Source: a virus
Direction: 5' to 3' (one strand)
DNA: 35,493 nucleotides
IMG/VR virus record: IMGVR_UViG_3300034121_000903
Span: 1 to 35,493 of that record
Both the position numbers and the translations under genes were made by a program. The notes under the pieces were generated by a model. It was not told the DNA's origin, did not search any database, and saw only the letters and a list, made by a program, of their open reading frames with translations. Positions 4,837 to 21,482 of the stretch are shown here, piece by piece; positions within the stretch are counted from its first letter, which is position 1; each line of letters begins with the position of its first letter.

Positions 4837-6366
4837 GTGGCGGAAATCAAGGGCAAATCAAAACGCGGCGGGTATCGCCCGGGAGCGGGGCGTCCCAAGA
4901 AAGCGGACGCCAAAAATGCAGCCTACGAGGCCGCAGAACTTTATCAGCCAGGGCGCACGCTCATCTATATGCCCACGGTTCAGCCGAGGCAGGAGTTTCA
5001 GAGCGGGACGCGCACCAACATCATGCGGAAGGCTCGCTGGCTTTACAACAATGTCGGCCTCGCTGCCCGAGCCGTGGACGGTGTGGCGCGCTACACCTGT
5101 GGCACTGGCATCATTCCGGCAGCCCGATCTTCTGACGCCGCGTGGAACCGCCAAGCCGAGGAGATGTTTGAGGACACCTGTGGCCGCGAAGCCTTTGGAT
5201 TCGACGCGGCGGGCCAAGTCAATTTTTACGAGGCACAGCATTTTATCTGCAAGCACGTTGCCATTGACGGCGACTTCTTTGGCCAGTTCGTAAAGAGCAA
5301 CGATGGCCGCGCCCTCATGCGCTTTATTGGCGGTGAGTCAGTCGGCAATGCCACCACCGGCCTTGCCCAAGACGAATGGCAGGATGGCGTGCGCGTCGAT
5401 TCGATGGGCAAGCCGACCCAGTATCGTCTGCTGGCCGACGAGACGAGCAGCACTTTCACCGATGTGGCCGCCGATGACATCCTGCATTTCCACCGCCCGG
5501 CGCGCATCGGCTACACCCGCAGCCCATCTTGGCTCTCCCGCGCAGCCCTGCATCTGCATGACATGGCCGACATCGTGGCCTTCACCAAGCAGACCTTCAA
5601 GCTCGCCAGCCAGCCCGCTTTTATCATCAAGAGCCCTGACGCCATGCAAGTTGGTATGGGGGCCGCGCTCAAAAAGCAGGACGCCTCTACCGGCAGCGTG
5701 ACCCTCGACAAGCTCTACGGCGGCAGCGGCGTGGTGCAACTCCCGCCTGGCACCGAGCTTCAGCAGTTCAAGAACGAGCACCCCGGCAACAACTTCCAAG
5801 CCTTCCTCGACTTCCTTGCCCGCGACATTTCATGGGGCATTGGACTTTCTCCCGAGATGCTATGGAGCGTGGCCGGCATCGGCGGGGCCAACACCCGCTA
5901 TGTGCTGGCCGACGCGCAGGTCTTTTTCTCTGAGTTGCAGGAATGGCTCATTAACCAATTCTGCCGCCGCTTCTGGAAGTATTGGGTCTGGTCGGAGATT
6001 CAAGCGGGACGCCTGCCGCTGCGCGAGGATTGGTGGAGAGTGGACTTCATCCCGCCAGCAAGGGCCACGGTGGACTTTGGCCGCGACACCAAGGCACTGC
6101 TTGAAATCGTCCGCACCGGGGCCATGTCCACCCGCCGCTTTGCCGAAATGCACGGGCTGGACGAAGAGGCCGAGGAAGATGCGGCGATTGCTGCCGCTGT
6201 TCGCCGCAAAAACAAATGCGAGGCCGCAGGATTGTCTGTCACCGATGTTTTCCCTCCCGCGCCGGGATCACCGGCTCCCATGCAGCCAGCGCCCAAACCC
6301 GAAGAGCACGACGAGGAATACGAAGAAACGGAAGCCGAGCCGCCGGCTGACTCTAGCGCGCTTTGA
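4837..6366 (+). CDS. Portal protein, lambda gpB type (509 aa)
   Basis: It forms the dodecameric channel through which DNA enters the capsid. The GTG start at 4837 gives a protein of normal length for the gpB-type family, with characteristic stretches such as NNVGLAARAVDG (about residues 69-80), CKHVAIDGDFF, GIGLSPEMLW and a C-terminal acidic low-complexity tail (EEHDEEYEETEAE). The N-terminus carries GGYRPGAGRPKK (residues 11-22), an AT-hook-like basic motif more often seen in small terminases and other DNA-binding phage proteins. Position between gpW-like and protease genes matches lambda. Confidence 0.9.
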   Translation: MAEIKGKSKRGGYRPGAGRPKKADAKNAAYEAAELYQPGRTLIYMPTVQPRQEFQSGTRTNIMRKARWLYNNVGLAARAVDGVARYTCGTGIIPAARSSDAAWNRQAEEMFEDTCGREAFGFDAAGQVNFYEAQHFICKHVAIDGDFFGQFVKSNDGRALMRFIGGESVGNATTGLAQDEWQDGVRVDSMGKPTQYRLLADETSSTFTDVAADDILHFHRPARIGYTRSPSWLSRAALHLHDMADIVAFTKQTFKLASQPAFIIKSPDAMQVGMGAALKKQDASTGSVTLDKLYGGSGVVQLPPGTELQQFKNEHPGNNFQAFLDFLARDISWGIGLSPEMLWSVAGIGGANTRYVLADAQVFFSELQEWLINQFCRRFWKYWVWSEIQAGRLPLREDWWRVDFIPPARATVDFGRDTKALLEIVRTGAMSTRRFAEMHGLDEEAEEDAAIAAAVRRKNKCEAAGLSVTDVFPPAPGSPAPMQPAPKPEEHDEEYEETEAEPPADSSAL

Positions 6367-6369
6367 CAC
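6361..6369 (+). promoter_or_regulatory. TTTGACA start-associated motif, copy 3
   Basis: CTTTGACAC contains the portal stop codon (TGA 6364-6366) and lies 12 bases before ATG 6382 of the protease gene. Confidence 0.55.
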
Positions 6370-6381
6370 TCGGGGCCAGGC

Positions 6382-7467
6382 ATGGCCCAAAACTGGTATG
6401 CTTTTAAGAACGCTCCCGACAAAAGCGGCGAGGTTGAACTTTCTCTCTACGACGAAATCGGTTCGTTCGGCATCGGCGCAAAAGAGTTCATTGCCGAACT
6501 CAAAGAGCACAAAGACGAGCACATCCACCTCCGCATCAATTCTCCCGGTGGAGAAATTGTCGAAGGCAGCGCGATTTACAACGCCCTGACCCGCCACAAA
6601 GGCGGCCTGACTGTTCACATCGATGCCCTGGCCGCAAGCATGGCCAGCGTCATCGCTATGTCGGGTGACCCGGTCTACATGGCGGACAACGCGCTTTTGA
6701 TGATCCACAACCCGTGGACCCTCGCAGCCGGTGAGGCCAAAGACCTCCGCAAGCAGGCCGACCTGTTGGACACCATGAAGTCCAACCTCATCCGCGCTTA
6801 TCAGAAGAAGAGCGGCATGGAGGAAAAAGCCATCGCCAAGCTGATGGACGAGGAAACCTGGCTCGATGCGGTTGAAGCCGTGGCCCTCGGCTTTGTCGAT
6901 GCCATCGAGGACGGCATTCCCGCCGCCGCCAGCGCCAAAGAAATGCGGGCGCGATTTGACAATTTCGCAAAGGCCAAGATGGAAAATACCGTTATCTCCG
7001 AAGCCGCCGAGGTTTCCGCGCCAGTCGCAGATCCTGTGGTCGAGGAAACCCCTGTGGCCGTTGAGGCCGTCGATTCTGTCACCGACGCGCCAGTGGCCGA
7101 AGAAGCTCAAGTCGTTGTCGAGGAAGCGCCTGTTGCTGAAGAGCCGCAGGCCGCCGTCACCGCCGACTCGCTCGTCGCCAAAATTTCCGACATGGCCAGC
7201 AAGTTGGCCGAAGTCGAAGCCCGCGCTACTGCCGCCGAGGTCGAACTTTCCAAGGTCAAAGAAGCCTTTGCCGCGCTTGAAAAAGGCGCAGGCGTAGCCG
7301 CCGCCACCGTTGTGCCGACTGTTGCCAGCGAAGACAGATCCGACCCCGTGGCCCAGTGGATGGACGCCATCGAGCGCAAGGACTACGCCGCCGCCGGCGA
7401 CCTCTACGCCAAGCACAAGCGCGCCATCTGGGCCGCCCGCGAAAAACTTTCCAAAGCCACCAGCTAA
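6382..7467 (+). CDS. ClpP-type prohead protease with C-terminal scaffold region (361 aa)
   Basis: Residues 1-180 are a ClpP/S14-like serine protease: RINSPGG (51-57), the nucleophile Ser86 in ALAASMAS, His109 in LMIHNPW, and the ETWLDAVEAVALGFVDAI helix (158-175) carrying the acidic member. Residues 200-290 are Val/Glu/Pro/Ala-rich and then heptad-like, typical of capsid scaffolding. This mirrors lambda C/Nu3, where the protease contains the scaffold as its C-terminal part, which is later cleaved during maturation. It precedes the capsid gene as expected. Confidence 0.87.
   Translation: MAQNWYAFKNAPDKSGEVELSLYDEIGSFGIGAKEFIAELKEHKDEHIHLRINSPGGEIVEGSAIYNALTRHKGGLTVHIDALAASMASVIAMSGDPVYMADNALLMIHNPWTLAAGEAKDLRKQADLLDTMKSNLIRAYQKKSGMEEKAIAKLMDEETWLDAVEAVALGFVDAIEDGIPAAASAKEMRARFDNFAKAKMENTVISEAAEVSAPVADPVVEETPVAVEAVDSVTDAPVAEEAQVVVEEAPVAEEPQAAVTADSLVAKISDMASKLAEVEARATAAEVELSKVKEAFAALEKGAGVAAATVVPTVASEDRSDPVAQWMDAIERKDYAAAGDLYAKHKRAIWAAREKLSKATS
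6954..6962 (+). promoter_or_regulatory. TTTGACA motif inside the protease gene, before a possible internal start
   Basis: ATTTGACAA ends 16 bases before in-frame ATG 6979, near the protease/scaffold junction. The same motif precedes ordinary starts elsewhere. Chance is possible because the codons encode Phe-Asp-Asn. Confidence 0.3.
6979..7467 (+). CDS. Possible internally initiated scaffold protein (162 aa), nested
   Basis: In-frame ATG 6979 begins MENTVISEAAEV, just after the protease domain ends, and would give a free scaffold sharing the C-terminus of the protease, as lambda Nu3 does within C. The product is acidic, Val/Glu/Ala/Pro-rich and then coiled-coil-like (KISDMASKLAEVEARATAAE). 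The evidence is domain boundary, precedent in lambda and the upstream TTTGACA copy. No good Shine-Dalgarno sequence is present, so this remains a prediction. Confidence 0.4.
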   Translation: MENTVISEAAEVSAPVADPVVEETPVAVEAVDSVTDAPVAEEAQVVVEEAPVAEEPQAAVTADSLVAKISDMASKLAEVEARATAAEVELSKVKEAFAALEKGAGVAAATVVPTVASEDRSDPVAQWMDAIERKDYAAAGDLYAKHKRAIWAAREKLSKATS

Positions 7468-7508
7468 GGAATCCCAACCCAAAACAACCCAACTAACCAA
7501 CCAAAAAT
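7468..7508 (+). promoter_or_regulatory. A/C-rich unstructured leader of the capsid gene
   Basis: The 41 bases before the capsid ATG are almost only A and C (AACCCAAAACAACCCAACTA and so on). The leader has no Shine-Dalgarno sequence near the start and no evident hairpin. It probably allows ribosomes to load without base pairing to 16S rRNA, which would suit the most highly expressed gene. Confidence 0.5.
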
Positions 7509-8360
7509 ATGGCTAACGTATTCGACAGCGGACTGGTGGTATCCACCATTTCTCAGCAAATCCAGACGGTCTTGTCTAACCGACTCGCGCCCCTGCGTTT
7601 GTTCACCACAGACTTCTCAAACGAAGTCAAGAAACCCAAAGACACCATCCAAGTTCCGATTGTGTCCGCGACCAACGCGACCTCCGTCAACCCCACCAAC
7701 TTTGAACCCGGCTCGGACGTGACCGTTGGCAAGGCCACCGTCACCCTCGATCACGTTGTTCAGTTCTTCGGCATCAGCCAGAGCGACCTCGCCCTCGGCC
7801 ATCGCCTTGAAACCCTGGTTGCCATCAACGTGGCCGCGCTGGCCGACAAGCTCTGGAGCTTGGCGATCACGCCCATCACCACGGTAAACTTCGGTGCGGC
7901 GGTTGTCACCACGACCACCATCACTCCTGGCAGCGGCCATCTGGCCACTCTTTGGAGCACGATCAGCAAGTCGACCAACAAGGGTTTGGTTGTCACACCT
8001 GAGATCTATTCACGGCTCATCCCGACCAACGCCGACTTCCTCCCGCTCAACAACGGAGCCTACGGCTTCGACCAGGGCGTGTACTACGCCAACACCTTCA
8101 GTGGTGCGGTCACCGGCCTTGATGGCTTTGCTTGCTCACGCGAAGCGATTTGCGTGGCCTCGGCCAAGCCCGCCATTGATCCCGGCGTCTCCTCGCAGTT
8201 CGCCATCAGCGACCAAGTGGTCACGCTGGAGCAACTCGGAATGTCGGTTTACTGGAACGTCTGGGGCAGCACTGGCAACCGCCAGGTCAATGCCAGCATC
8301 GAGGTCATGTTTGGTGCTAACGCCGGTCTGACCAGCAGCACGATGGCTCTTGTCATCTAA
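7509..8360 (+). CDS. Major capsid protein candidate (283 aa)
   Basis: It sits directly after the protease/scaffold gene, has its own leader and is followed by two strong terminators, all typical of the coat gene. The sequence is rich in Val, Thr, Ala and Asn with few charges. Stretches such as LAPLRLFTTDFSNEVKKP and VPIVSATNATSVNPTNFEPG resemble small HK97-fold coat proteins of the P22/N4-like kind (VKKPKDTIQVP, GKATVTLDH). No separate decoration protein is seen between scaffold and coat. Family match is from position and general look, not a diagnostic motif. Confidence 0.8.
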   Translation: MANVFDSGLVVSTISQQIQTVLSNRLAPLRLFTTDFSNEVKKPKDTIQVPIVSATNATSVNPTNFEPGSDVTVGKATVTLDHVVQFFGISQSDLALGHRLETLVAINVAALADKLWSLAITPITTVNFGAAVVTTTTITPGSGHLATLWSTISKSTNKGLVVTPEIYSRLIPTNADFLPLNNGAYGFDQGVYYANTFSGAVTGLDGFACSREAICVASAKPAIDPGVSSQFAISDQVVTLEQLGMSVYWNVWGSTGNRQVNASIEVMFGANAGLTSSTMALVI

Positions 8361-8471: not shown

Positions 8472-10178
8472 GTGCCGAAAATTCATCTCGGGATAATTTG
8501 TGGAAACGAAGCGGATTACATCACACGCTTTCTTGATTCGTTCCAACCGCACGTTGACTCAATCAGCGTAGTGCGCGCCATCGGCAACCAGCCGCCCGAC
8601 GCCACCCTAGACATTGCCAAGGGGCGGGGCTGCACGGTTGGCGAATATTTCAACGACCCCGGCAACGACTGGCCGCACGTCGATTCTTTCTGTGCCGCCC
8701 GCAACGCGGCCTTTGCCCTGGCACCCGCCGATGCCGACTGGCTTATGTGGGCCGATTGCGACGATTTGCTGGCCCCTACAGGCGAGAAGGTGCTGGCCGA
8801 GATACGAGCAGGCAAGCTGGACGCAAAAGAGGCCGTCTACGCGCCTTACGTCACATCCATGCAGGGCAGCTATGCCAGGCGAATCCGCCTTGTCCACCGC
8901 GAGGTTTTCGACAAATGGATTAACTGCATCCACGAAGACATCGAGGTCAAGCCAGACACCCACGCCGCGTGGTGCCAAGAGCTTCAAGTGGTGCATATGC
9001 CGGCGGTCAATAAGCGTGGCAGCGTCGAGCGCAACAAGCGCATCCTGACCGCGATCCCCGAGGACAAGCGCACGGGCCGCGAATGGTGGTTTCTTTTCCG
9101 CGAATGCGAAATGCAGGGCGACATCACCGGGGCCTTGACCGCCGCCGTCGTGGCCACCGGGCGGGACGATTTGGCCAAGGAGGAAAAATATCTGGCCTAC
9201 CTGTCGATTGGCCGCTGGCTCAAGGACATCGAGGAGGCCGAGCGCCCACTGCTTGAGGCCATTCGCCTCATGCCGCACCGCAGGGAAGGATATGCTGAAC
9301 TGGCCAAGGTGCATCTGGCCCGGGGGGATGCTGACAAAGCCGTGGCGTGGTGTGCCAACATGGAGGCGCACGAAGATCCCGATGATGCCTCATGGATTCA
9401 CGATGCCAGCCTTTACGGATGGCGAGCGCACGATTTGAAGTGTGCGGCATTGGCCAAGGCCGGTCGCACCGAGAAGGCCAACAAAATCCGCCGCGAATAC
9501 CACCACCGGCATCGGCCACGCATTGCTGTTGGACACCCGACGTGCCGACCCGATCAGGCCATCAAAATGCGGGAGCTTTACCTAGAGCGGGCCGCACGCC
9601 CCGAGCTGGTCGCGTATTGGTTTGGAGTCAATGAGGCCGACCAGGCAGTGGTTGATGGCATCAAGCATTATCCCCACGCTGTCAGTGCCGCCGTGCCGGA
9701 AGGTCACTCGTCAGCCGTGGCCAACTACAACGCCGCTGCCAAGGCCGCAGCCGAGTCAGCCAAGATCATCCTGATTGCCCAGGACGATTGCTACCCGCCG
9801 CACGGCTGGGACGAACAGATTGTCCAGGCAATGGAACCAAACAAGGGCAAGCCCACGGTCCTGCACGTCTTTGATGGATTCCGCAAAGATCAGATCATGG
9901 TCATGCCCTGCTTTAACTGGGCTTATTACGCGGGCCGTAAATGGCTCTTCAACCCCGAGTTCGATGGCTACTGGAGCGACACCGAATGGAGTTGGCGGGC
10001 CTACAAAGAAGGAGTCGTTAAAGACGGCAGGCACATCAATTTCTACCACGACCACCCGCTTTTTACGGGGGCCAAGTCGGACGCCGAGTATATGCGGCAA
10101 CAAAATCCCGAAGCCGAGCGCCGAGGGCGCGCAGTCTTTGAGCGGGTGGCTCCCGATGCCGTCGCCGCCGGATGGTGA
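8472..10178 (+). CDS. Two-domain glycosyltransferase with helical repeat linker (568 aa)
   Basis: The GTG start at 8472 gives MPKIHLGIICGNEADYITRF, a family-2 GT-A opening, with metal/nucleotide-sugar motif WADCDD (93-98). A TPR-like helical region (about residues 190-345) follows. A second GT-A-like domain has IAQDDCYPP (about 435-443) and an acceptor-side DTEWSW (about 503-508). It probably transfers sugars, most simply onto virion proteins, because it lies between capsid and connector genes; host-surface modification is an alternative. It overlaps the next glycosyltransferase by seven bases. The insertion interrupts otherwise lambda-like order. Confidence 0.75.
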   Translation: MPKIHLGIICGNEADYITRFLDSFQPHVDSISVVRAIGNQPPDATLDIAKGRGCTVGEYFNDPGNDWPHVDSFCAARNAAFALAPADADWLMWADCDDLLAPTGEKVLAEIRAGKLDAKEAVYAPYVTSMQGSYARRIRLVHREVFDKWINCIHEDIEVKPDTHAAWCQELQVVHMPAVNKRGSVERNKRILTAIPEDKRTGREWWFLFRECEMQGDITGALTAAVVATGRDDLAKEEKYLAYLSIGRWLKDIEEAERPLLEAIRLMPHRREGYAELAKVHLARGDADKAVAWCANMEAHEDPDDASWIHDASLYGWRAHDLKCAALAKAGRTEKANKIRREYHHRHRPRIAVGHPTCRPDQAIKMRELYLERAARPELVAYWFGVNEADQAVVDGIKHYPHAVSAAVPEGHSSAVANYNAAAKAAAESAKIILIAQDDCYPPHGWDEQIVQAMEPNKGKPTVLHVFDGFRKDQIMVMPCFNWAYYAGRKWLFNPEFDGYWSDTEWSWRAYKEGVVKDGRHINFYHDHPLFTGAKSDAEYMRQQNPEAERRGRAVFERVAPDAVAAGW

Positions 10179-10756
10179 AATTTCAGATCCTCATTCCAAC
10201 CATGCCTGGCCGCGAGGCCATGCTGTTGCGCCTGATCAAATTGATTGAGCCGCAGATCGCAAGGCACCAAGCCGCCAGCTACTTTATGGACCCGGGCGAG
10301 GGAAGTATCGGGGTCAAGCGCCAGCGCATGATCAACAAAGCCACCGCTGACTACATTGCTTTTGTCGATGACGATGACCTGGTCAGCGCGGACTACCTTG
10401 ACCGAATCATGCCGTGCTTGGCAGCCAAGCCAGATTGCGTAGGCATCACCATGCACGTCACAATGGACGGACGGGACTACCATCCTTCGCCCATCTTTCG
10501 CCACAGCCTGCGCTACAAGGAAAACTTCCAGTGGTATGGGCATGATCGCACGCCACACCACCTTTGCCCGCTGCGCCGAAGCCTAGCCACCCGCAGCCGC
10601 TTCCCCGACCTTATGTGGGGGGAAGATTACAATTATGCATTGGGCCTTTTGCCGCATCTCAAAACCGAGGTGTGGGCGGGAGACGAGCCCCTTTATTTTT
10701 ACAACTACGTCAGCAAAAAGGGCGACCCCATCTTTGACAGTGGCCAAAAGGCATGA
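10172..10756 (+). CDS. Small family-2-like glycosyltransferase (194 aa)
   Basis: This is a compact GT-A fold: opening VKFQILIPTMPGRE, VKRQRMINKATADYIAFVDDDDL with DDDD at residues 66-69 as the metal site, and WGEDYNY (149-155) as the usual Glu-Asp catalytic region. Start ATG 10172 overlaps the previous gene, so the two are probably co-translated and may act in sequence on one glycan. It is shorter than most family-2 enzymes and lacks membrane segments, so it is presumably cytoplasmic. The acceptor is unknown. Confidence 0.75.
   Translation: MVKFQILIPTMPGREAMLLRLIKLIEPQIARHQAASYFMDPGEGSIGVKRQRMINKATADYIAFVDDDDLVSADYLDRIMPCLAAKPDCVGITMHVTMDGRDYHPSPIFRHSLRYKENFQWYGHDRTPHHLCPLRRSLATRSRFPDLMWGEDYNYALGLLPHLKTEVWAGDEPLYFYNYVSKKGDPIFDSGQKA
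10732..10740 (+). promoter_or_regulatory. TTTGACA start-associated motif, copy 4
   Basis: CTTTGACAG overlaps the end of the glycosyltransferase gene and lies 12 bases before ATG 10753. Confidence 0.55.
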
Positions 10757-11100: not shown

Positions 11101-11522
11101 ACCCGCTGAACGTCGAGAAGTGCATGGCCACCTATCTTGAGGGGGTCACCGGCATTGCCAATGTCATCCCCGTGCATGAGTCGATCAGTGCCGAAGACGT
11201 GGATCTAAACAAGTCGGCCATCGTGGTGGAGGCCGAAAGCACCGAGCACACCAGCGGCAGCCTTTATTTGGCCACCGTCAACGTCAGTCTTCGCAGCCCG
11301 GCTCTTTCCGTCAGCCAGTCCGACCACCTAGCCCGATGGACGCTAGTAGCCAACGCCTTGGAGAACCAGACCAACATGGCGACCTCCTTTGCTTCAACGA
11401 TCAGCACGGGCAGCTTGGGCATCGTTTTCAACGGGCGTTACGTCCGATCCTTGAGCACCTCAACCAGTGACCGCGCATGGGTCAACGCCGCCGACTTGGC
11501 AGTGGGTATCGGCACGGTTTGA
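11097..11522 (+). CDS. Tail completion/terminator-like protein (141 aa)
   Basis: ATG 11097 overlaps the previous stop and has a good Shine-Dalgarno sequence (TTGGAGGT, about 11082-11089), so I prefer it to the upstream ATG at 11073. The alpha/beta pattern (short N-terminal helix, central beta strands, helix SDHLARWTLVANALE, C-terminal strands) and its place before the tail-tube candidates suit lambda gpU/gpZ-like tail completion proteins. No sequence match is certain. Confidence 0.5.
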   Translation: MNPLNVEKCMATYLEGVTGIANVIPVHESISAEDVDLNKSAIVVEAESTEHTSGSLYLATVNVSLRSPALSVSQSDHLARWTLVANALENQTNMATSFASTISTGSLGIVFNGRYVRSLSTSTSDRAWVNAADLAVGIGTV

Positions 11523-11525
11523 CAC
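11517..11525 (+). promoter_or_regulatory. TTTGACA start-associated motif, copy 5
   Basis: GTTTGACAC contains the upstream stop codon (TGA 11520-11522) and ends 13 bases before ATG 11539. No Shine-Dalgarno sequence. Confidence 0.55.
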
Positions 11526-11538
11526 TTGTTCCAAGCAT

Positions 11539-11850
11539 ATGCCTTCCATCGGTATCACTCTGAACGACATTGCCGAGCCCTCTAGCTCCACCACTGAGGA
11601 GTTCACCAAGGACCAAAGCGTTGAGATCGTCACCATCCGCGACAAGACGGGCGTCACCAAGCACGCCACCAAGCTGGGATACAGCACCACCACCGTGACG
11701 CGCCGAGGGCGCGGAGCGGGCAGCCTGGCCGATGTTGCTGTGGGCGCGATTAGCGAAGGCACGGCCAAGATTATTTCGATCCGCAACACGCAGACCGCCG
11801 ACGATTTTCCAAGTTACGAAATTACCGCAATTCTGAAAGACGACCTTTAA
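11539..11850 (+). CDS. Tail-tube-like protein, first of a paralogous pair (103 aa)
   Basis: A small beta-rich protein starting MPSIGITLNDIAEPSSS. From QSVEI (about residues 26-30) to the C-terminus it can be laid alongside the next gene: strand TTTVTRRGRGAGSLADVAVG, then Gly turn, then a segment like RNTQTADDFPSYEITA. The position between tail completion and chaperone genes is that of lambda gpV, the tail tube. Two related proteins here may form a heteromeric or two-part tube. The tube role is inference. Confidence 0.5.
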   Translation: MPSIGITLNDIAEPSSSTTEEFTKDQSVEIVTIRDKTGVTKHATKLGYSTTTVTRRGRGAGSLADVAVGAISEGTAKIISIRNTQTADDFPSYEITAILKDDL

Positions 11851-11853
11851 GCC

Positions 11854-12174
11854 ATGCCCTCCACCGTTACAGACATTGGCGTCACCGCCTATTCGGACAC
11901 CCTCACGCAGAGCGTTGAGATCACAAAGACCGTTGAAGAGCTTCACATTGCCGAGAAAGACGGCACATACGGGCAGGGCAAAGCCTTCGACCCGACCTTT
12001 GAAGTTTCAGTCTCTGGGCGCGGCGACCTTCCCGCCCTTACCCTTGGAGGCACGGCGAGCATCACCGGCGTCTCGGGCGGCGTCTCGATCATCACGAACA
12101 TTTCCCAGACTGAGCGCAACGAGGACTACGCAGATTGGTCGTTCACGATGCGGAACTTCCCGGGCGCTTCGTAA
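11854..12174 (+). CDS. Tail-tube-like protein, second of a paralogous pair (106 aa)
   Basis: It begins MPSTVTDIGVTAYSDT three bases after the previous stop, without a clear Shine-Dalgarno sequence. It shares the order of features with its neighbour: QSVEI, a strand with SGRGDLPALTLGGTAS, and a C-terminal SQTERNEDYADWSFTM matching TADDFPSYEITA. This looks like an old tandem duplication with strong divergence. It is a candidate for the major tail protein. Confidence 0.5.
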   Translation: MPSTVTDIGVTAYSDTLTQSVEITKTVEELHIAEKDGTYGQGKAFDPTFEVSVSGRGDLPALTLGGTASITGVSGGVSIITNISQTERNEDYADWSFTMRNFPGAS

Positions 12175-12180
12175 GCATTC

Positions 12181-12624
12181 ATGCAAATAAGAGTGGTTAA
12201 ATCGCGGGCCGACAACCCGCTCACAAGCCTTGAGACTGCGTCTGCCGTGGCCGCTCTCACCTTTGGCTATCAGCTAATCGACAAGAACGAGGCCAAAAAC
12301 TTTGAGGACTACGTTGAGGAAACCAAAGAAAGCGCCCAGCGCGAAACCCTTTGGGTCTTCAATGATCTGAGCACGGCCAACATTGCCGGCGAGAACGTGG
12401 CCCTCAAAGACTTCATCACCCGTTTCATGGACTTGAAGTGGTGCGAGGCGCACGCCGATTCACCCATCGCCAACCTTCGCCACTACCACGAAAACGTCAG
12501 CCTGTGGCGGGAACACTTCCGCGCTAACAAGCCGATGATCCTCATGCGTAAAGGCCAGCGAGTTCTCAAGATCCGCCCCGACGCCACCGACAAGGAGAAA
12601 GCGAAATGGCTAAAACTGCTCTGA
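12181..12624 (+). CDS. Hypothetical tail-region protein (147 aa)
   Basis: ATG 12181 follows the previous stop by six bases. It is a helical, acidic protein with several Trp residues and a basic C-terminal segment (MRKGQRVLKIRPDATDKEK). It overlaps the chaperone gene by 19 bases, so it is likely co-expressed with the tail genes. No family is recognised; a tail assembly accessory role is only suggested by position. Confidence 0.6.
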   Translation: MQIRVVKSRADNPLTSLETASAVAALTFGYQLIDKNEAKNFEDYVEETKESAQRETLWVFNDLSTANIAGENVALKDFITRFMDLKWCEAHADSPIANLRHYHENVSLWREHFRANKPMILMRKGQRVLKIRPDATDKEKAKWLKLL

Positions 12625-13885: not shown

Positions 13886-15505
13886 ATGGCCACGGTATCA
13901 ACCAAGCTGACTCTGGACACCTCGGGATTTAACCGAGGGATTAAGTCCGCAGAAAACGGCATGTCCAAGTTTAAGGCTGCCGCGGGGCCTGCCGTGTTGG
14001 GCGGGGTGGCCGCAGGCTTTGCCGCAGCCGCAGCCGCTGCCGCTGGCCTTGCCGTGGGTATCAAGGGCGCGCTCGACCTCGCTGGGGCTCTCTCAGACCT
14101 TTCTAGTCGCACGGGCGTGGCCGCAGGCGAGCTTCGCATCCTGCAAGAAGCCTTTGCCCGCAACGGGCTATCCGCCGAGAAGGTGGGGCCATCAATCAAC
14201 AAGATGCAGCGCGCCCTGGTTGAAGCGGGCGACGGCACGGGGCCGGCGGCTGAAGCATTTAAGATGCTTGGCATCTCGGTGGATGGGCTGCGCGGCATGG
14301 ACGCCTCATCGCAATTTGCGGCAATCGGCCAAGCCATCAATTCTATTTCCGATCCAGCGGGCCGGGCTGCCGCTGCCATGCAGATCTTTGGCAAGTCTGG
14401 CGGCGAGATGCTCACCCTCTTTGCCAACTCAGGAGCAATGGGCGAGGCCGCCCGCAGCGTGGGCGATCAGGCCGACATCCTAACCCGCAACGCTAATCTC
14501 TTTGACCAGGCATCCGACATCCTCGGCAGCGTGGCCACCAAGATGCAGGGATTCTTTGTCGGGGTGGCCGATACCTTGGTTCCTGCGCTCATGCCTCTTC
14601 TTGAGGCCGCAGACGGCATCGACCTTTCGGGCCTCGGGCAAGACCTGGGCAATGCGATTGCCTTTGGCCTGACGGTGATTACCTCGGGAAATTTGGGCAA
14701 CATCTTGTCCGCGCAACTCAAGTTGTCAGGCGCGCAGTTTATCAATCTCTTGGTGCAGGGAATTTCTGGCATGGTTGCCTTCTTGGCCCAGCGCCTCATC
14801 GACATACCCTCCGAGTTCGTCACCCTTTTGGGGATTGTCACCAAGGCTGAATTTTGGGCGGGGGTAGGCAATGGACTCCTTGCCGCTGCCATGAAGTTCG
14901 CCGCCGTCATCCAGCGTGCCGCCGCCGCCCTGCTTGATGCCGTCAGCAATGTGCCGGGATTAGGCGGGGCCGCAGGGCTGGCCGCAGGATACCGCGAAAG
15001 CGCGGCACAAATGGACGCCGGGGCCGCAGAGCGCGGAGCCGCCGCCTCAGACGCTTTGAGCGGCCCACTGGCCCAAGTGCGCGAGCGCATCGCCCAGAGC
15101 TTCGACAATGCGATCACGGCAGCCGCTGCGGCAATGGAGCAAGCCGGCGAAACCATTGACACCACCGAATTGCAAGCGGCCCGCGACGGCCTTGTCGGAG
15201 AGATCACCACGCAGATGGATGCCAACCGACAGGCCGTGCGCTCGCGCTTTGAGGCTACCAAGACCCAGACCCCGCTGATGGAAGACATGGAAGACTCGGC
15301 GGGCAAAGGCAAGAGCAATGCCGGCGTCATCGCCCAAAGCCTGCAAAGCGTAGGCGGGGGCGCGGCTTTTGCTCGGTTCTCTGACGCGGCCAACCCAGCG
15401 GCTGAAGCTGTCCGCGAGCAAAAGAAATCGAATAACTACCTGGCCGCCATTGCCGAGGGAATCAACTACATCCGAAATGGCAACGGTTCACTGATGCCCG
15501 CTTAA
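13886..15505 (+). CDS. Tape measure protein (539 aa)
   Basis: ATG 13886 has a GGAGG Shine-Dalgarno sequence at 13870. The N-terminus (TVSTKLTLDTSGFNRGIKSA) is a classic tape measure opening, followed by an Ala/Gly hydrophobic stretch (residues 32-65), a long helical body, and further hydrophobic segments around residues 270-300 and 320-360. It sets tail length and is ejected with DNA. At about 0.15 nm per residue it would give a tail near 80 nm, short for a siphovirus. It lies downstream of the chaperone pair, as expected. Confidence 0.85.
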   Translation: MATVSTKLTLDTSGFNRGIKSAENGMSKFKAAAGPAVLGGVAAGFAAAAAAAAGLAVGIKGALDLAGALSDLSSRTGVAAGELRILQEAFARNGLSAEKVGPSINKMQRALVEAGDGTGPAAEAFKMLGISVDGLRGMDASSQFAAIGQAINSISDPAGRAAAAMQIFGKSGGEMLTLFANSGAMGEAARSVGDQADILTRNANLFDQASDILGSVATKMQGFFVGVADTLVPALMPLLEAADGIDLSGLGQDLGNAIAFGLTVITSGNLGNILSAQLKLSGAQFINLLVQGISGMVAFLAQRLIDIPSEFVTLLGIVTKAEFWAGVGNGLLAAAMKFAAVIQRAAAALLDAVSNVPGLGGAAGLAAGYRESAAQMDAGAAERGAAASDALSGPLAQVRERIAQSFDNAITAAAAAMEQAGETIDTTELQAARDGLVGEITTQMDANRQAVRSRFEATKTQTPLMEDMEDSAGKGKSNAGVIAQSLQSVGGGAAFARFSDAANPAAEAVREQKKSNNYLAAIAEGINYIRNGNGSLMPA

Positions 15506-15509
15506 TCTT

Positions 15510-16199
15510 ATGCCTTCATTTCAAACAGCCGGTTCTCGCACCACCATTACGCCAGAGGGGCGCAAGATTGTTTCCATTCCTGTCAGTGTCACAGACGACA
15601 CGGTGGCAACCATGCCAACTACGCCAACTGGGATGCGTTTGGTTTCCTCTGAATTTACCAACCGCCCCGACGGTGGCCGCGATTACGTTTTTACCTACGA
15701 GTCGAACGGCAGTGCGCCAGGAGACGCGCAAATCCAGATCAACGGGCAGGCCGCGCAAGAGCCCATCGAGACGCATCCCAAGTTTAACGGAGAGCAGGGT
15801 TTCGGAACAGTCAGTGACGCCGACCTTGCCGCTATCAGGGCATCGTTAAGCAGTGGAAGCGCACCCTCATTTACGGCCACCGGCCTTGACCTGACCGCAG
15901 CGCAAAACCTTTACGCGCTCATGCTGAAAGGTGTGACCAACTACTACACCGCAAGCGGAGTGACCTATTCCGAGACGTTCGACGAAACTGTGAAGCCAAA
16001 CCTCAACGAGCTTTGCTCAGTAGATCGCCCGCCTGCCGATGCGCCGTCTCTGCGCGAGGGCAGCAACTGGCTGCAAATTAGTTTGCGCGCCAACAAGATT
16101 TACGAACCAGACACCGGAACAAGTTTTTGGCGCATCACCCGCGAATGGTTGGCCAGCGGCCCGCGTGGTTGGAATGCCGACTTTGCCATCTACGAATAA
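15510..16199 (+). CDS. Tail-tip protein candidate (229 aa)
   Basis: It begins MPSFQTAGSRTTITPEGRKI with no clear Shine-Dalgarno sequence, four bases after the tape measure stop. It has a beta-rich N-terminal half and a C-terminal half with several Trp residues (GSNWLQISLRANKIYEP, TSFWRITREWLASG). The place after the tape measure is that of distal tail or minor tail proteins. No family motif is recognised. Confidence 0.55.
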   Translation: MPSFQTAGSRTTITPEGRKIVSIPVSVTDDTVATMPTTPTGMRLVSSEFTNRPDGGRDYVFTYESNGSAPGDAQIQINGQAAQEPIETHPKFNGEQGFGTVSDADLAAIRASLSSGSAPSFTATGLDLTAAQNLYALMLKGVTNYYTASGVTYSETFDETVKPNLNELCSVDRPPADAPSLREGSNWLQISLRANKIYEPDTGTSFWRITREWLASGPRGWNADFAIYE

Positions 16200-16201
16200 C
16201 C

Positions 16202-16825
16202 ATGCAACACGGCATCCGCGAGTTTCGCCCAAGGCAGCCGCTGGATCGCCAGCTTAGTTCTGACACGCTCAACCGCATCCTGCGGGAGTTAGAAAGCCTA
16301 CGCATCACCCGGGTGGTCAACGGCACTTTCAAAAAGTTGCCTGGCGGGACAGAGATCGTGGTTGCACCAAGAAGCGGTGGAGGAACGCCCGCCACCATCC
16401 AACCCTGGGACTTGCAGGCCCGCGTAGATCCCGCCGCCGCACCCGAAAACCCAACCCCGCCCTACCTTGTCCGTGTCCGCCCTGGCACGCTCAACGGCAT
16501 CCTGCCGACTAACTGGGACGAGGAGTTTGAGTATCCCGGCACGGGCCTGTGGTATGCCAAGGCCGTGATTGCAACGGACGGCGAGGCTATCACTGGCGTT
16601 ACTATTGAAATCGACGGCACAGCTCCCGCCGTGCAGCAGCCGCAGGAGTTTGGCATTGAGAATCCCGTTGAGTATTTGTTTGGCCTCTTCCTTGAAGGCG
16701 CGGTTTACCGCGTCATCGGGGCTGGGCATATCACGATTTCGCCAAAGCTGTGGCTGACCACGGAAAAGCCAGCGCCACCCGCGCCGGGCGAGCTTCCGTT
16801 TTTGCAATACTTTACACTGCGATGA
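16202..16825 (+). CDS. Hypothetical tail protein (207 aa)
   Basis: ATG 16202 follows the previous stop TAA by two bases. A short basic N-terminal helix (LNRILRELESLRITRVVNG) is followed by Pro-rich, beta-strand-rich sequence, with NPTPPYLVRVRPGTLNGILP in the middle. Such a helix-then-beta plan is common in phage tail fibre adaptors. An upstream extension to 16127 would overlap the previous gene. It overlaps the next gene by four bases. Confidence 0.6.
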   Translation: MQHGIREFRPRQPLDRQLSSDTLNRILRELESLRITRVVNGTFKKLPGGTEIVVAPRSGGGTPATIQPWDLQARVDPAAAPENPTPPYLVRVRPGTLNGILPTNWDEEFEYPGTGLWYAKAVIATDGEAITGVTIEIDGTAPAVQQPQEFGIENPVEYLFGLFLEGAVYRVIGAGHITISPKLWLTTEKPAPPAPGELPFLQYFTLR

Positions 16826-18618
16826 TCACCTGGGCGACCACAGTTGCCCCGCAAACCGAGGCATTTTCTTTTAGCTCTGTCTCTGAAGTGCGGCCACAAA
16901 ACCCTGGCGGCGGCGCGAGCGTAACGATCACCGTTACAGGACGAGCAACCACCCAGATTATTTGGTCAAAAACAATTTATAGCACGGCTGGATCGCTTGT
17001 CGGCGGCGGCGCGGGGAACACTGAATCCGTGCTCGGAACAACGAATTCAACAAGCTACCAAACAAATTCGGACGAGGCCGAAGTCAATCCTTCAATAACC
17101 GTGCGAAGCGTTGTTAATCAGACTTCAACGGAGACAACGCGCCAATACACCTATCGCCCGACAGCTACGAGCACCACCGCGACAACAACTTTAGGCAGCA
17201 CAGTGTCTGGGACGATCACTACGCTAGGGAGTTTTATCCCAACAACCGAAACCTACACATCGACCTTTTCTGGGACGGTATTAACGGCCACCGAGACTTG
17301 CCTGAGCACGACCACGGTAGCGCAAGAAACCGTTGCAACTCCTATTTTTGCCACCGTGATAGTGGCCGACAAGAACGAGGTGATCTGGGTTGCCAATACC
17401 ACAGCGGCGACCGCTCTTTCGGGCATTAGGGCAGCCTCGGCAGTCGCAACCTCAACCACGCGCACGACTATTATGCCGTGGACGCCAACGGTTACAGCCG
17501 TCCAAGCCAATTCGACAGAAACCACGGCGGTCAACTTGTCTGCAATTTTGGCCCAGTTTTCTTACAGCCAAACAGCCTTTGCCGCTTTTACTCAGACAGA
17601 AGTTGAGGACTACGAGTCATTACCTCACAAGACCATCACTGATGGAGGTCTTTCCCGTTCCCTTTCTGCCACGCAAATTTCCGCCACCGTGGCCGAGGCC
17701 CAAACAATCACGGTGACAAAAAGCGCAGGAACAGAAACTCGGTATGTCGAGTCCAACACAACCGCTCGCGCCTTTACAAATGGAGCCTCTTTTTCAAGCA
17801 ACGGAACAACTACTGGAACCATTGAGCGGCAGCACACTGTGCCAACAGCAGAAAGCTCGACTTCTAGTTTTACCGAAGAAGTTATTGCTTACAGCGTCCC
17901 AGAGACTTGGGATAATTCAGAGGAGGATTGGACTGAATACACATGGACGGCCAGTTTTCAGTCTTCAACCCTCAACTCACTGACCGATTTTGCGCGTCAA
18001 AGCCAAGGCATTACCACTTCTGTTGCCGTGGCCTCGACTGCCTACGAGGCGCGGTCTGGTGTCGTAGACTCAACGGGAGGAATTGCGCTTGGCTATTCCC
18101 TCAACAGCACGCTCGGAACTGGCTTTGGCGCAACCAAAGTCAGCCGCCATGCCTCATCAGCTTTTCCTTCATCAGGTGAATTTGACCAAGGCGGGACATC
18201 GCAAAACATTAGCGCGAGCTTTTCCAAGTTAAGCGTGTCTTTGTCTTTTCCCGGCTCCACCTCGACCACTACAACCACTGCGGTGTTGAGCCCATTTGGG
18301 GCGGCCTTAAGCGTAAGAGCTGGCCCTAGTGAATGGCGCTCGGCCCTGAATGCGTCAGGACTTGGCAAAAGCGAGACGGTCTTTATTACTCTGCCTCGTG
18401 GGGTTTACTCGGCCAATGGGTCAACTTTTTCAACCACTGGGCAAACAACGTCATTTGCCTCTGGCAACACCGCAACCAGCGCGGTTCCGTTGCCGGTCAG
18501 CTTTATTGTGCCGGTTACTGGCCTTGCCACCGCCGATAAGATTTGGTGGACCGCTTCGCGCAACAGCCACGAATCTTTAGGTGGGCTAACCCAAGCGGCA
18601 GCCTACTCGGCTGCTTGA
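16822..18618 (+). CDS. Very Ser/Thr-rich tail or adhesin-like protein (598 aa)
   Basis: The start is ATG 16822 in an ATGA overlap; an upstream in-frame ATG at 16750 would run deep into the previous gene. The protein is extremely rich in Thr, Ser, Ala and Val, with few Lys residues and long runs such as TATSTTATTTLGSTVSGTIT (about residues 112-131), suggesting a beta-rich extended fibre or an O-glycosylated surface. By eye the codons are more A/T-rich (ACA, ACT, TCA) than in neighbours, which may mark recent acquisition. A glycosyltransferase follows directly. No known receptor-binding domain is recognised. Confidence 0.65.
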   Translation: MITWATTVAPQTEAFSFSSVSEVRPQNPGGGASVTITVTGRATTQIIWSKTIYSTAGSLVGGGAGNTESVLGTTNSTSYQTNSDEAEVNPSITVRSVVNQTSTETTRQYTYRPTATSTTATTTLGSTVSGTITTLGSFIPTTETYTSTFSGTVLTATETCLSTTTVAQETVATPIFATVIVADKNEVIWVANTTAATALSGIRAASAVATSTTRTTIMPWTPTVTAVQANSTETTAVNLSAILAQFSYSQTAFAAFTQTEVEDYESLPHKTITDGGLSRSLSATQISATVAEAQTITVTKSAGTETRYVESNTTARAFTNGASFSSNGTTTGTIERQHTVPTAESSTSSFTEEVIAYSVPETWDNSEEDWTEYTWTASFQSSTLNSLTDFARQSQGITTSVAVASTAYEARSGVVDSTGGIALGYSLNSTLGTGFGATKVSRHASSAFPSSGEFDQGGTSQNISASFSKLSVSLSFPGSTSTTTTTAVLSPFGAALSVRAGPSEWRSALNASGLGKSETVFITLPRGVYSANGSTFSTTGQTTSFASGNTATSAVPLPVSFIVPVTGLATADKIWWTASRNSHESLGGLTQAAAYSAA

Positions 18619-18621
18619 CAC
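18613..18621 (+). promoter_or_regulatory. TTTGACA-like start-associated motif, copy 7 (one mismatch)
   Basis: GCTTGACAC contains the stop codon of the Ser/Thr-rich gene (TGA 18616-18618) and lies 15 bases before the GTG start at 18637. Confidence 0.45.
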
Positions 18622-18636
18622 GCCGCCCGCCCGCGA

Positions 18637-19659
18637 GTGTTAGCCATAGCCACCTACGCAACGCGCAGCTACTTCCACGTCTGGCCGCAGTTCCTTCGGC
18701 GCATTGCCGCCGCCGCTGGCCACCACGCCGAGGCGCATTTCATTCTCGCTACGGATCAATCGGACGAAGCCAAGGCCGCCATCGAGGCCGCGCGGCACGA
18801 ACTGCCCGAAGGCTGGCGCATCCAAGCGGTGCAGTTGCCGCTTGAGGACGGAGGCGTGGAGGGCAAGAACTACCAAGTAGACGCCCAGATGCGGATTGCC
18901 GCTTTGCAAGGGGCCGCATTCGCCGCTGCCAGAAAGATCCGCGCCACAGCTTTGTGGTCTGTCGAGGCCGACAACCTTGTCCCGCCCGATGCCCTGCGGG
19001 TGGCCGAGTGGGCGCTGGCCATGCCCACCGAGGACGGTTCGCCGTTTTACCATGTCTCCGCCGTGACCTACCCGAACGGCCTTTTTCTCGGGGGCAACGG
19101 CACACCGCAGAATCCCATTGCCGAGGACTTTACCGAGAAAGAGCGCAAGCTGCCGCCGCGCCTTGTCCGCGCTTTGGACGCCTGCCGCGCCCGACTCAAA
19201 GATTGCCAGGACAAAGCCATTGGTGAAAAGGAAGGCAAGCGGCTGGGGCGGCTGGCCGAGCGGGTTAAGCGTTGCCCGCCGGATGGCAATGTTTTTGAGG
19301 TGAGCGGCAAGCACGGTTGGCGACGGCGCGGGTGGATGGACTTCGCTTACCCTGGCATTGGCAGGGGGGCCATTGTGCCGTCCGATTGGTGTGGGCTGGG
19401 CTGCACGCTGATGTCTGCTCGGGCGCTGGCCTTGGCGACCTTTGAGGGCTACGACGGCAAAGGGACTCAAGACCTTTTCCTTTGCTGGCATCGCTGGCAT
19501 CCGAATGGCCTACGCATCGCCGCCATCCCGCACACTTGCGCGGACCATGTGAAGCGTGATGCCAAGGGCGAGGTAGTCCACCACCGGGCGTATCACGAAA
19601 CGGAAGGGGAATATCGCGGCCACCTTCGCCAACGCCAGCAACCTTGGATGCCCTGCTGA
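18637..19659 (+). CDS. Glycosyltransferase-like protein (340 aa)
   Basis: GTG 18637 starts MLAIATYATRSYFHVWPQFL, a GT-A-like first strand and helix. SVEADN (108-113) replaces the usual DXD at the end of the nucleotide-binding half. Later residues include WCGLGCTLMS and CADHVKR, typical of bacterial and phage glycosyltransferase-like folds with a late His. It is cytoplasmic and has no membrane segment. The gene directly follows the Ser/Thr-rich fibre, the obvious candidate acceptor. The enzyme class is moderately certain; the sugar and acceptor are unknown. Confidence 0.65.
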   Translation: MLAIATYATRSYFHVWPQFLRRIAAAAGHHAEAHFILATDQSDEAKAAIEAARHELPEGWRIQAVQLPLEDGGVEGKNYQVDAQMRIAALQGAAFAAARKIRATALWSVEADNLVPPDALRVAEWALAMPTEDGSPFYHVSAVTYPNGLFLGGNGTPQNPIAEDFTEKERKLPPRLVRALDACRARLKDCQDKAIGEKEGKRLGRLAERVKRCPPDGNVFEVSGKHGWRRRGWMDFAYPGIGRGAIVPSDWCGLGCTLMSARALALATFEGYDGKGTQDLFLCWHRWHPNGLRIAAIPHTCADHVKRDAKGEVVHHRAYHETEGEYRGHLRQRQQPWMPC

Positions 19660-19689: not shown

Positions 19690-20217
19690 ATGCGCGTTTA
19701 CGTCAACCTCGATTCCCGCGAGTTCGTTGTTTCTCCTGTTTTGTTGCAGCGGGTCAGCACGCTCTTTTTTACCCGCCGCGATATCGTTCCTGTCCAAGTT
19801 CAGTTTGTGCGCGGCGGCACGGTGGTGGAATTGGCAGCTGGGGCAACGGGCCAGATGGGGCTGAAAAAGACTTTCGCTGGCAGCTTCTTGGCCAATGACG
19901 CCGCGTTTACCAAGACAGGAACAGGGACAACCACCGTTTATCAGTTCGACCTCAACCTAAATACCACCAACCTCAACGCCGAATTCCCGCTCGACACTGA
20001 GGACAGCATATCGGCCAAGGTCGAAATTGAGTGGACCGAATCCGGCACGACCTCCTCCACGTTGCCGACCTCCGCGACGATCTACAATGACGTGATCCGT
20101 GGCGGCGAAGGTGTTCCGACTGTTACGGCTGCGGCCAGCTTCAAGCTGCTCTCGGGAGACTCAAGCCTGTGGACGATCACGGTAGACAACGACGGCATTT
20201 TGACAGCCACCAAATAA
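19690..20217 (+). CDS. Tail/fibre-associated beta-rich protein (175 aa)
   Basis: It starts MRVYVNLDSREFVVSPVLLQ with a weak purine-rich leader. The sequence alternates hydrophobic and Thr/Asn residues, with a middle segment TVYQFDLNLNTTNLNAEFPL. The last residues, WTITVDNDGILTATK, match in pattern the end of the gene at 22416 (FALSVDDDGMLTTTRL), pointing to a shared terminal hairpin perhaps used for docking. It probably belongs to a baseplate or fibre complex. No family is confidently recognised. Confidence 0.6.
   Translation: MRVYVNLDSREFVVSPVLLQRVSTLFFTRRDIVPVQVQFVRGGTVVELAAGATGQMGLKKTFAGSFLANDAAFTKTGTGTTTVYQFDLNLNTTNLNAEFPLDTEDSISAKVEIEWTESGTTSSTLPTSATIYNDVIRGGEGVPTVTAAASFKLLSGDSSLWTITVDNDGILTATK
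20198..20206 (+). promoter_or_regulatory. TTTGACA start-associated motif, copy 9
   Basis: TTTTGACAG lies within the last codons of the preceding gene, 22 bases before ATG 20229. The spacing is longer than in other copies. Confidence 0.35.
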
Positions 20218-20228
20218 CTGAAAGCCCA

Positions 20229-21482
20229 ATGAAACTTCGCCTCCTAATCCTCCTCGCCGCCGCCGCCCTGGCTGCCGCACCAGCCGCAGGGCAGACTGTA
20301 AAATCTTTAGGCTACAACACAACAAACGGCAACATCGTCGCGGCAACCAATGTCACCTTCACCAACTCGGTTGGTTTCGCCACCAACGCCCGAGCGGCCA
20401 CGCGCACCAACCTCGGCGGCACTACGGTGGGCAATGCGGTTTTTACGGCGACCAATGCTGCGGCGGCGGCTACGGCTGTTGGCCTTGGTGCAAACAATGA
20501 GGTAAGTTTTTTAACACTCAATGCAAGAATGAATGCTGGCGAAAGCAATTCAATTGTCTTCAATTCCCCAATAGCCTTTGATGACGTAGCAGATGAAGAC
20601 ATTGTTGCAAAAACCCGCACCAACCTCGGCCTCGGCGCAACCAACAACGTCACCTTCTCCAACGTCACTGCAAGCGGCACGCTTACCGCCACCGGCAACG
20701 CGACCCTCAACGGCTCGGACAACCTCATGCCAAACGCGACCACGGCGAGCAGTGGGGCGAGCTTGATGACGCGGGAGCTAACCGACGACAATCCCCTTTG
20801 GGCACTTGGTTCTGTTCGGCCAATGGGTGCTTATGCATTCGGCAATTCTGGATCACCAGCAACGGCGGTTGAGGCAGTCACCCGTGGCGGTGCATTTCTT
20901 GCCACCGGAGCAAACACTAATGGTTATGGTCGCGCCTCTCTTTACCAAGGCATCAATGACGCGCCCCTCCTAAGTGGGCAAGGCATTAGGTTCACGCAAA
21001 GTATTACAGCGTCTGCAATATTATCAACAGTTCCGCGCACCAACGGGGTAGTGCGGCTAATCGTGGGTGGGAACGGTGGCGTTCCTGCTGCGGCGGACGC
21101 GGACGCGTTGGCGGTGCGTGGATTTGGAGTTGAATTTGCAGTTGACCCTAGCGGGTTCAAAATGCGGCTCTTTGCCCACAATGGAACAAGCTACACAAAT
21201 TCAGCTTACAGTGCGGGGATTGCTAATAGTTCGGCTCCTCCACAGCATGTTATAATTTCCAGTCAAACTAACGGCGTTATTTCTTTATACCATTCAATCG
21301 GAGTAGTCAAAAGCCCTCCTCGCCCATCGACAACGCCCTTGCTTACGCTTTCTGGGGGGCCGACTAGCGGGTTTGGAGGCGGGTATGTCGATTTGGTCAC
21401 TGTTACTGCTTCAAACACTGCTGCAACACCAATTCCGGCCACCGCAGTTTTTTACAGCGGCATGATTGAGGTGAAAGATTAA
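20229..21482 (+). CDS. Tail-fibre-like protein with N-terminal signal peptide (417 aa)
   Basis: ATG 20229 begins MKLRLLILLAAAALAAAPAA, then GQT: a textbook Sec signal peptide (basic n-region, hydrophobic core, Ala-X-Ala-type cleavage near residues 19-21). The mature part carries fibre-type repeats, TRTNLGGTTVGN (about 59-70) and TRTNLGLGATNNVTF (about 132-146), of the kind found in trimeric phage fibres, then a distinct C-terminal beta domain (about 190-417). A signal peptide is odd for a virion fibre. It may be exported to the periplasm or cell surface, or be a host-derived gene. Confidence 0.65.
   Translation: MKLRLLILLAAAALAAAPAAGQTVKSLGYNTTNGNIVAATNVTFTNSVGFATNARAATRTNLGGTTVGNAVFTATNAAAAATAVGLGANNEVSFLTLNARMNAGESNSIVFNSPIAFDDVADEDIVAKTRTNLGLGATNNVTFSNVTASGTLTATGNATLNGSDNLMPNATTASSGASLMTRELTDDNPLWALGSVRPMGAYAFGNSGSPATAVEAVTRGGAFLATGANTNGYGRASLYQGINDAPLLSGQGIRFTQSITASAILSTVPRTNGVVRLIVGGNGGVPAAADADALAVRGFGVEFAVDPSGFKMRLFAHNGTSYTNSAYSAGIANSSAPPQHVIISSQTNGVISLYHSIGVVKSPPRPSTTPLLTLSGGPTSGFGGGYVDLVTVTASNTAATPIPATAVFYSGMIEVKD

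Follow-up and report, generated by a model that had tools for sequence, protein, structure and literature searches.

A hypervariable Ser/Thr-rich gene paired with a conserved GT-A-fold glycosyltransferase gene in uncultured phages, a candidate system for tail fibre O-glycosylation

A Ser/Thr-rich gene followed by a glycosyltransferase gene

We analysed a pair of adjoining genes in a viral stretch of 35,493 bases (IMG/VR record IMGVR_UViG_3300034121_000903), hereafter the window, which has a siphovirus-like gene order. Terminase, portal, head protease and major head protein genes are followed by two glycosyltransferase genes and the tape measure gene, and then by the gene pair, a second fibre-like gene, an amidase gene and nuclease and helicase genes. 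The first gene of the pair (16822..18618, + strand) encodes a hypervariable protein of 598 amino acids, which is a probable tail fibre or adsorption protein by its composition and its position two genes after the tape measure, and which we propose as a glycan acceptor. The second gene (18637..19659, + strand) encodes a predicted glycosyltransferase of 340 amino acids and starts with GTG. The Ser/Thr-rich gene overlaps the stop codon of the preceding gene with its ATG (ATGA), and 18 nt separate its own stop from the start of the transferase gene at 18637, the distance given in the initial annotation of this DNA. That annotation also described the 598-residue open reading frame (ORF) as dense in Ser and Thr, and the count bears this out: 118 Thr and 87 Ser make up 34.3% of the protein, compared with 6-23% in the other measured genes of the window (n = 28). 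The A/T-richer codon use relative to the neighbours was likewise recovered, as the G+C content at third codon positions (GC3) was 0.52 against 0.69 expected from the other genes for this amino-acid composition. It is not unique to this gene, since the second fibre gene, fib2 (20220-21482), and the helicase gene have a GC3 about as low. Moreover, GC3 of the Ser/Thr-rich gene was lower than that of the enzyme gene in 86 of 88 related loci, indicating a persistent feature of this gene rather than the trace of a single recent import. Recent import, considered on the GC evidence, was therefore rejected.

The Ser/Thr-rich protein matched no family in Pfam or PHROGs, tblastn against 50,697 annotated phage records retrieved nothing for it, and no tandem repeats were found in 16800-18640. 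AlphaFold with 21 sequences gave an unreliable model (predicted local distance difference test score, pLDDT, 43) that was mostly beta or disordered. We also considered N-glycosylation; the 11 NxS/T sequons are a mild excess over shuffled sequences (6.9 +/- 2.2) and were not persuasive.

The product of the second gene had been called a glycosyltransferase, a label that is right by fold, whereas Pfam alone stayed below threshold (Glyco_tranf_2_3, PF13641, 16.4 bits against a cut-off of 27, E 0.009). An AlphaFold model based on an alignment of 28 sequences reached a pLDDT of 75 overall and about 92-96 at residues 1-70, with the low-confidence regions mainly at residues 146-165 and 217-251. When this model was compared with PDB structures by Foldseek, 78 chains were retrieved at E<=0.001 with glycosyltransferases at the top, and the best match was the collagen galactosyltransferase COLGALT1 (E 3e-7), which is itself a protein O-glycosyltransferase. 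Comparison with the WrtF fucosyltransferase gave a VIA Z of 16.7 and a root-mean-square deviation of 2.6 over 173 residues. The enzyme as modelled has a GT-A glycosyltransferase fold. It is like known GT-A enzymes (COLGALT1, GT2-type) in this fold and in an acidic metal motif, but unlike them in sequence, with 10-20% identity and a score under the Pfam GT2 cut-off. Residues E110 and D112 of a VE(S/A)D motif that follows the predicted strand 105-110 are invariant in 28/28 homologues and form a DxD-like acidic metal/nucleotide motif; H299, D303 and H304 near the C-terminus, also invariant in all 28, look catalytic. A profile search for PDB sequence relatives found none, and tblastn gave no match among the annotated phage records at E<=0.01. 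In IMG/VR, at least 138 viral stretches encode relatives of the enzyme. Few bacterial bins carry it, namely a Chthoniobacter bin, another Verrucomicrobiota bin and one small Burkholderiales contig, and it was present in only 2 of 388 sampled genomes of the phylum of the Chthoniobacter bin, that bin counted. A host among the Verrucomicrobiota may be suspected.

Pairing of the two genes across related viruses

About 100 related viruses (loci labelled L below) retain the pairing of the Ser/Thr-rich gene with the enzyme gene. In most of these loci the ORF adjoining the enzyme is Ser/Thr-rich and mostly 430-860 residues long, and in the group closest to the window the gap between the two genes is mostly 18 nt. 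The pairing was assessed on 59 dereplicated loci that have another large ORF (>=350 residues) for comparison. The most Ser/Thr-rich ORF of this size was the enzyme's neighbour in 58 of the 59, compared with about 30 for two random places, and the median Ser plus Thr fraction was 0.30 for the adjoining ORF, compared with 0.196 for the richest of the remaining large ORFs (Wilcoxon 4e-11). An automatic scan left six loci without a partner. On inspection by hand, the partner was complete in two of them (L121, L071) and truncated where the contig stops in two more (L044, L046); L076 has a partner of 340 amino acids at the contig end, and L078 has merely 139 nt of upstream sequence.

The pairing also persists in a different arrangement. 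In L035-L049, the inverted group, the Ser/Thr-rich gene is on the other strand and converges on the enzyme gene, with a four-base overlap of the two ends. When the ORFs of L042 and L039 were compared with those of the window and four close relatives, only the transferase, a cupin, an anchor-like gene and the Ser/Thr-rich gene were held in common, with the amidase in addition in L042 but not in L039, and PHROGs found no head or tail match in the inverted group. Furthermore, the pair is present in L050-type phages, in L162 (enzyme 45% identical) and in L134 (36%), a locus of a bacterial bin.

We then used the flanking genes as bait. The small tail gene directly 5' of the Ser/Thr-rich gene (16196..16825, + strand, start approximate), which we call the anchor gene, has homologues at the equivalent place in related phages, L162 and those of the inverted group among them. 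A narrow alignment of this gene retrieved 27 loci, mostly on contigs already found through the enzyme, with L162 new. The enzyme was encoded in 25 of them and the remaining two stop before its position, so that every anchor-gene contig of sufficient length had it (25/25). Similarly, the conserved gene 3' of the transferase (19690..20217, + strand, beginning MRVYVNLD... and present in relatives) found the enzyme in 18 of 19 loci, the last of which begins inside the bait. Such constant presence with the anchor gene is unusual for an accessory gene. The initial annotation had proposed an acceptor/transferase gene pair and had suggested looking at its co-occurrence across phage genomes. An independent distribution of the two genes was looked for and was not seen, and the counts of 58/59 and 25/25 strongly support the pairing.

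Turnover of the Ser/Thr-rich gene beside a stable enzyme

In contrast to the enzyme, the Ser/Thr-rich gene changes rapidly. Between the window and L011, the identity was 81% for the tape-measure protein (13886..15505, + strand; PHROG tail tape measure, E 6e-22, which marks the tail module holding the pair), 93% and 80% for the next two genes, 94% for the enzyme and 98% for the downstream gene. The 93% gene (15510..16199, + strand) lies between the tape measure and anchor genes and is tail-associated by position, its family not assigned. Despite the 94% identical enzyme, the Ser/Thr-rich protein of the window had no tblastn match in L011, and DNA identity, at 0.9 before this gene, dropped to about 0.5 along it and recovered at the enzyme. 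Within the window's phage group the transferase is 81-94% identical, whereas the Ser/Thr-rich gene has been replaced or has diverged past recognition. Its Ser/Thr density nevertheless stays at 21-39% over 64 clusters (<50% identity).

The relatives that could be aligned have three elements in common, a start MIxWT, a middle stretch at residues 171-230 and a C-terminal W-[TSAV]-x-x-R-N motif. The middle stretch (ATVIVADKNEVIW...TRTTI, 17332..17511, + strand) is the most conserved, with 34.5% identity against 19-28% elsewhere in the alignment. The motif (WTASRN in the window, residues 576-581, 18547..18564, + strand) occurs in 28 of 88 partner proteins, compared with 0.5 expected by shuffling, and R580 and N581 are invariant in the alignment. 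These relationships were drawn from BLAST with composition correction and from the alignment; linkage of all the proteins by a profile hidden Markov model was dropped because composition bias swamped the scores.

The two genes also have unequal histories. The enzyme tree separates the inverted group cleanly from the window group (Shimodaira-Hasegawa-like approximate likelihood ratio test 100). In contrast, the tree of the Ser/Thr-rich C-termini mixes the two groups and needs eight changes, as many as with shuffled labels, and a constraint uniting the inverted group in this tree was rejected (approximately unbiased test, p 6e-6). The branches of the C-termini tree are long and individual placements unsure, which weakens the tree-based reading. 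Several fibre lineages span both groups; L049 and L118, for instance, match over 414 residues. Such a pattern would result either from fibre genes having been exchanged or from shared variants of ancient origin. Since the enzyme tree keeps apart the groups that the other tree mixes, joint arrival does not hold for the current alleles of the two genes: the transferase stays beside a fibre that turns over. The earlier suggestion that the two genes had arrived together thus holds for the module, which is common to phages with few other shared genes, but not for the alleles now present, given the retained enzyme, the replaced Ser/Thr-rich gene and the disagreeing trees.

Other genes near the transferase vary among the relatives. 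A cupin related to nucleotide-sugar epimerases (PF14667/FdtA) is encoded near the enzyme in 44 loci of both arrangements, downstream in the window group and upstream in the inverted group (for example L017 11008-11436 and L042 9576-10004), which suggests that many of these phages tailor a donor sugar. In most close relatives it lies between the transferase gene and the MRVYVNLD... gene; the window is without it. A gene family beside the transferase in L007, L008, L009, L011 and L014 (L014 11028-11708) resembles a gene of L050 (4219-4887) with a DUF3431 Pfam match. L050 also has two ORFs of 41% and 51% Ser plus Thr (4912-6635 and 6632-7723) that adjoin a gene for a glycosyltransferase of GT1 type; this may be another acceptor/transferase pair, one that uses a different enzyme family. 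In L134, an ORF of 462 amino acids with 55% Ser plus Thr (11174-12562) lies directly 3' of the distant transferase gene, and the usual upstream partner is also present. The ORFs directly 3' of the transferase in L067 (11095-12087) and L070 (11046-12020) encode proteins with similar N-termini (MI-AI-YH-GD--LM-RW), and the L067 protein had no Pfam match. In the window itself, the two further glycosyltransferase genes are GT2-like (8472-10178 and 10172-10756) and lie directly 3' of the major capsid gene; their products may act on the capsid. ORFs resembling the first of them recur far upstream of the pair in L002 and L017.

A candidate system for fibre O-glycosylation and its alternatives

Based on the above results, we consider it likely that a dedicated cytosolic O-glycosyltransferase decorates the hypervariable tail fibre and tolerates changes in the acceptor sequence. 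The core of such a cassette would comprise the small anchor gene, the Ser/Thr-rich fibre gene, the GT-A glycosyltransferase gene and often the cupin-type nucleotide-sugar epimerase gene. During infection, the soluble transferase would act in the cytoplasm on freshly synthesized fibre protein, before the tail is assembled or as it is assembled, moving a sugar from a nucleotide-sugar donor onto many of the fibre's Ser/Thr hydroxyls, and would need neither a lipid carrier nor a secretion step. The fibre would lie at the virion surface, where receptor binding and/or escape would strongly favour diversification, so that its sequence would change with Ser/Thr density retained. Given this turnover, the transferase would have to read a local Ser/Thr-rich beta/loop context, perhaps with the conserved ends or the middle motif, and not one sequence. 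That the pairing outlasts a nearly complete change of the tail protein suggests an enzyme that sugar-coats these fibres irrespective of their sequence. The coat might serve protection, stability or receptor binding. Computation shows the composition, the fold, a near-obligatory pairing, the hypervariability of the fibre gene and the unequal inheritance of the two genes; the acceptor, the sugar, the timing and the benefit are inferred.

Several points weigh against this proposal. Neither donor nor acceptor specificity of a GT-A enzyme can be read from its fold. The window phage has two other glycosyltransferase genes, and the enzyme might therefore extend a glycan begun by another glycosyltransferase. 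Exposure of the fibre is assumed, given its poor model (pLDDT 43). In addition, Ser/Thr-rich beta fibres occur without glycosylation, and the downstream fibres also reach 20-25% Ser plus Thr.

Known systems share parts of this arrangement. Mycobacteriophages glycosylate their virions with phage-encoded glycosyltransferases (Che8 gp110, Corndog gp38, Myrna; Freeman et al. 2023, as cited in PMC12363180 and PMC12619734), and these accounts propose a shielding role. The acceptors they describe are capsid and tail tube proteins, at the C-termini, whereas here we propose an adjoining hypervariable Ser/Thr-rich fibre. Homology of the Che8 gp110/Corndog gp38 type was not found for the enzyme by tblastn (E<=0.01), in a collection whose inclusion of their records was not confirmed. 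Gram-positive serine-rich repeat protein (SRRP) adhesin loci likewise place a Ser/Thr-rich adhesive protein gene beside dedicated O-glycosyltransferase genes (GtfA/GtfB with accessory Sec), with dense Ser/Thr modification (PMC6973325). The SRRP adhesins have repeats and are secreted wall proteins, whereas the Ser/Thr-rich protein of the window has no tandem repeats and is a probable virion protein. No Pfam match to SecA2/SecY2/Asp or GtfA/GtfB was found among the larger window ORFs scanned. The GtfA/B type is set apart from the GT-A fold of the window enzyme. Pelagimyophages are also aquatic phages with a hypervariable fibre region carrying glycosyltransferase genes, and in their host recognition cluster of tail fibres and glycosyltransferases GT8 is the commonest family (PMC7029224). 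Their glycosyltransferase genes lie in large islands of variable content and are interpreted as modifying the host O-antigen, whereas here one conserved enzyme keeps its position at one fibre. A limited literature search found no report of a phage glycosyltransferase adjoining a hypervariable tail fibre.

As an alternative, the transferase could target another virion protein, the major capsid or tail tube protein, its adjacency to the fibre gene being merely the order of the tail module. Capsid and tail tube are the virion proteins known to be glycosylated in phages (PMC12363180), and the capsid protein of the window contains 20.5% Ser plus Thr; but the capsid gene already has two other glycosyltransferase genes beside it, and the adjacency is kept, also when inverted, in phages where no head or tail relative of the window's genes was found apart from the anchor-like gene, so we regard such a target as unlikely. 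That the enzyme alters the host surface (O-antigen or other receptor glycans) and thereby blocks superinfection would agree with the interpretation of the glycosyltransferases beside pelagimyophage fibres (PMC7029224) and with serotype conversion as a common role of these enzymes (PMC12619734). This is rather improbable, as the enzyme is constant with its module where an accessory gene would come and go, the partner protein is Ser/Thr-rich in every case, and no flippase, lipid-carrier glycosyltransferase or integrase was seen among the window ORFs scanned with Pfam.

The remaining two alternatives fare worse. If the Ser/Thr richness were the plain composition of a fast-evolving beta-rich fibre and the genes were neighbours without a functional link, one could point to the other fibres of these phages, also raised to about 20-25% Ser plus Thr, and to the mostly beta or disordered, low-confidence fibre model. 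We hold this to be very unlikely, because in 58 of 59 loci no other large ORF is as Ser/Thr-rich as the enzyme's neighbour, the linkage persists through inversion and change of backbone, and the module retrieved with the anchor gene was never without the enzyme. Glycosylation of modified phage DNA is done by some phage glycosyltransferases, according to work cited in PMC12619734, but this enzyme is encoded in the tail module and tracks the Ser/Thr-rich protein, and no base-modification genes were seen among the scanned window ORFs, which makes such a role extremely improbable here. None of these alternatives accounts for the enzyme staying beside the most Ser/Thr-rich gene through changes of both arrangement and backbone.

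Taken further, there is an even chance that the locus is a portable adsorption cassette, with a conserved, sequence-tolerant O-glycosyltransferase, of a family without a match in the annotated phage records, that coats an ever-changing Ser/Thr-rich fibre, and with fibre alleles exchanged between phage groups whose other genes are mostly unrelated and the enzyme remaining with its own group. With the same balance of doubt, it may represent a glycan-based way of keeping a fibre functional under near-total sequence turnover. If O-glycosylation of the fibre is correct, a large set of uncultured viruses, so far known from metagenomes only, would have O-glycosylation of the receptor-facing fibre built in, and acceptor sequence would be uncoupled from glycosylation, two things that are usually tied. 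It offers a testable prediction to a field in which the roles of phage glycosyltransferases are mostly guessed. About 60 unrelated-looking natural acceptors would then be at hand for one enzyme family, and could tell what an O-glycosyltransferase reads.

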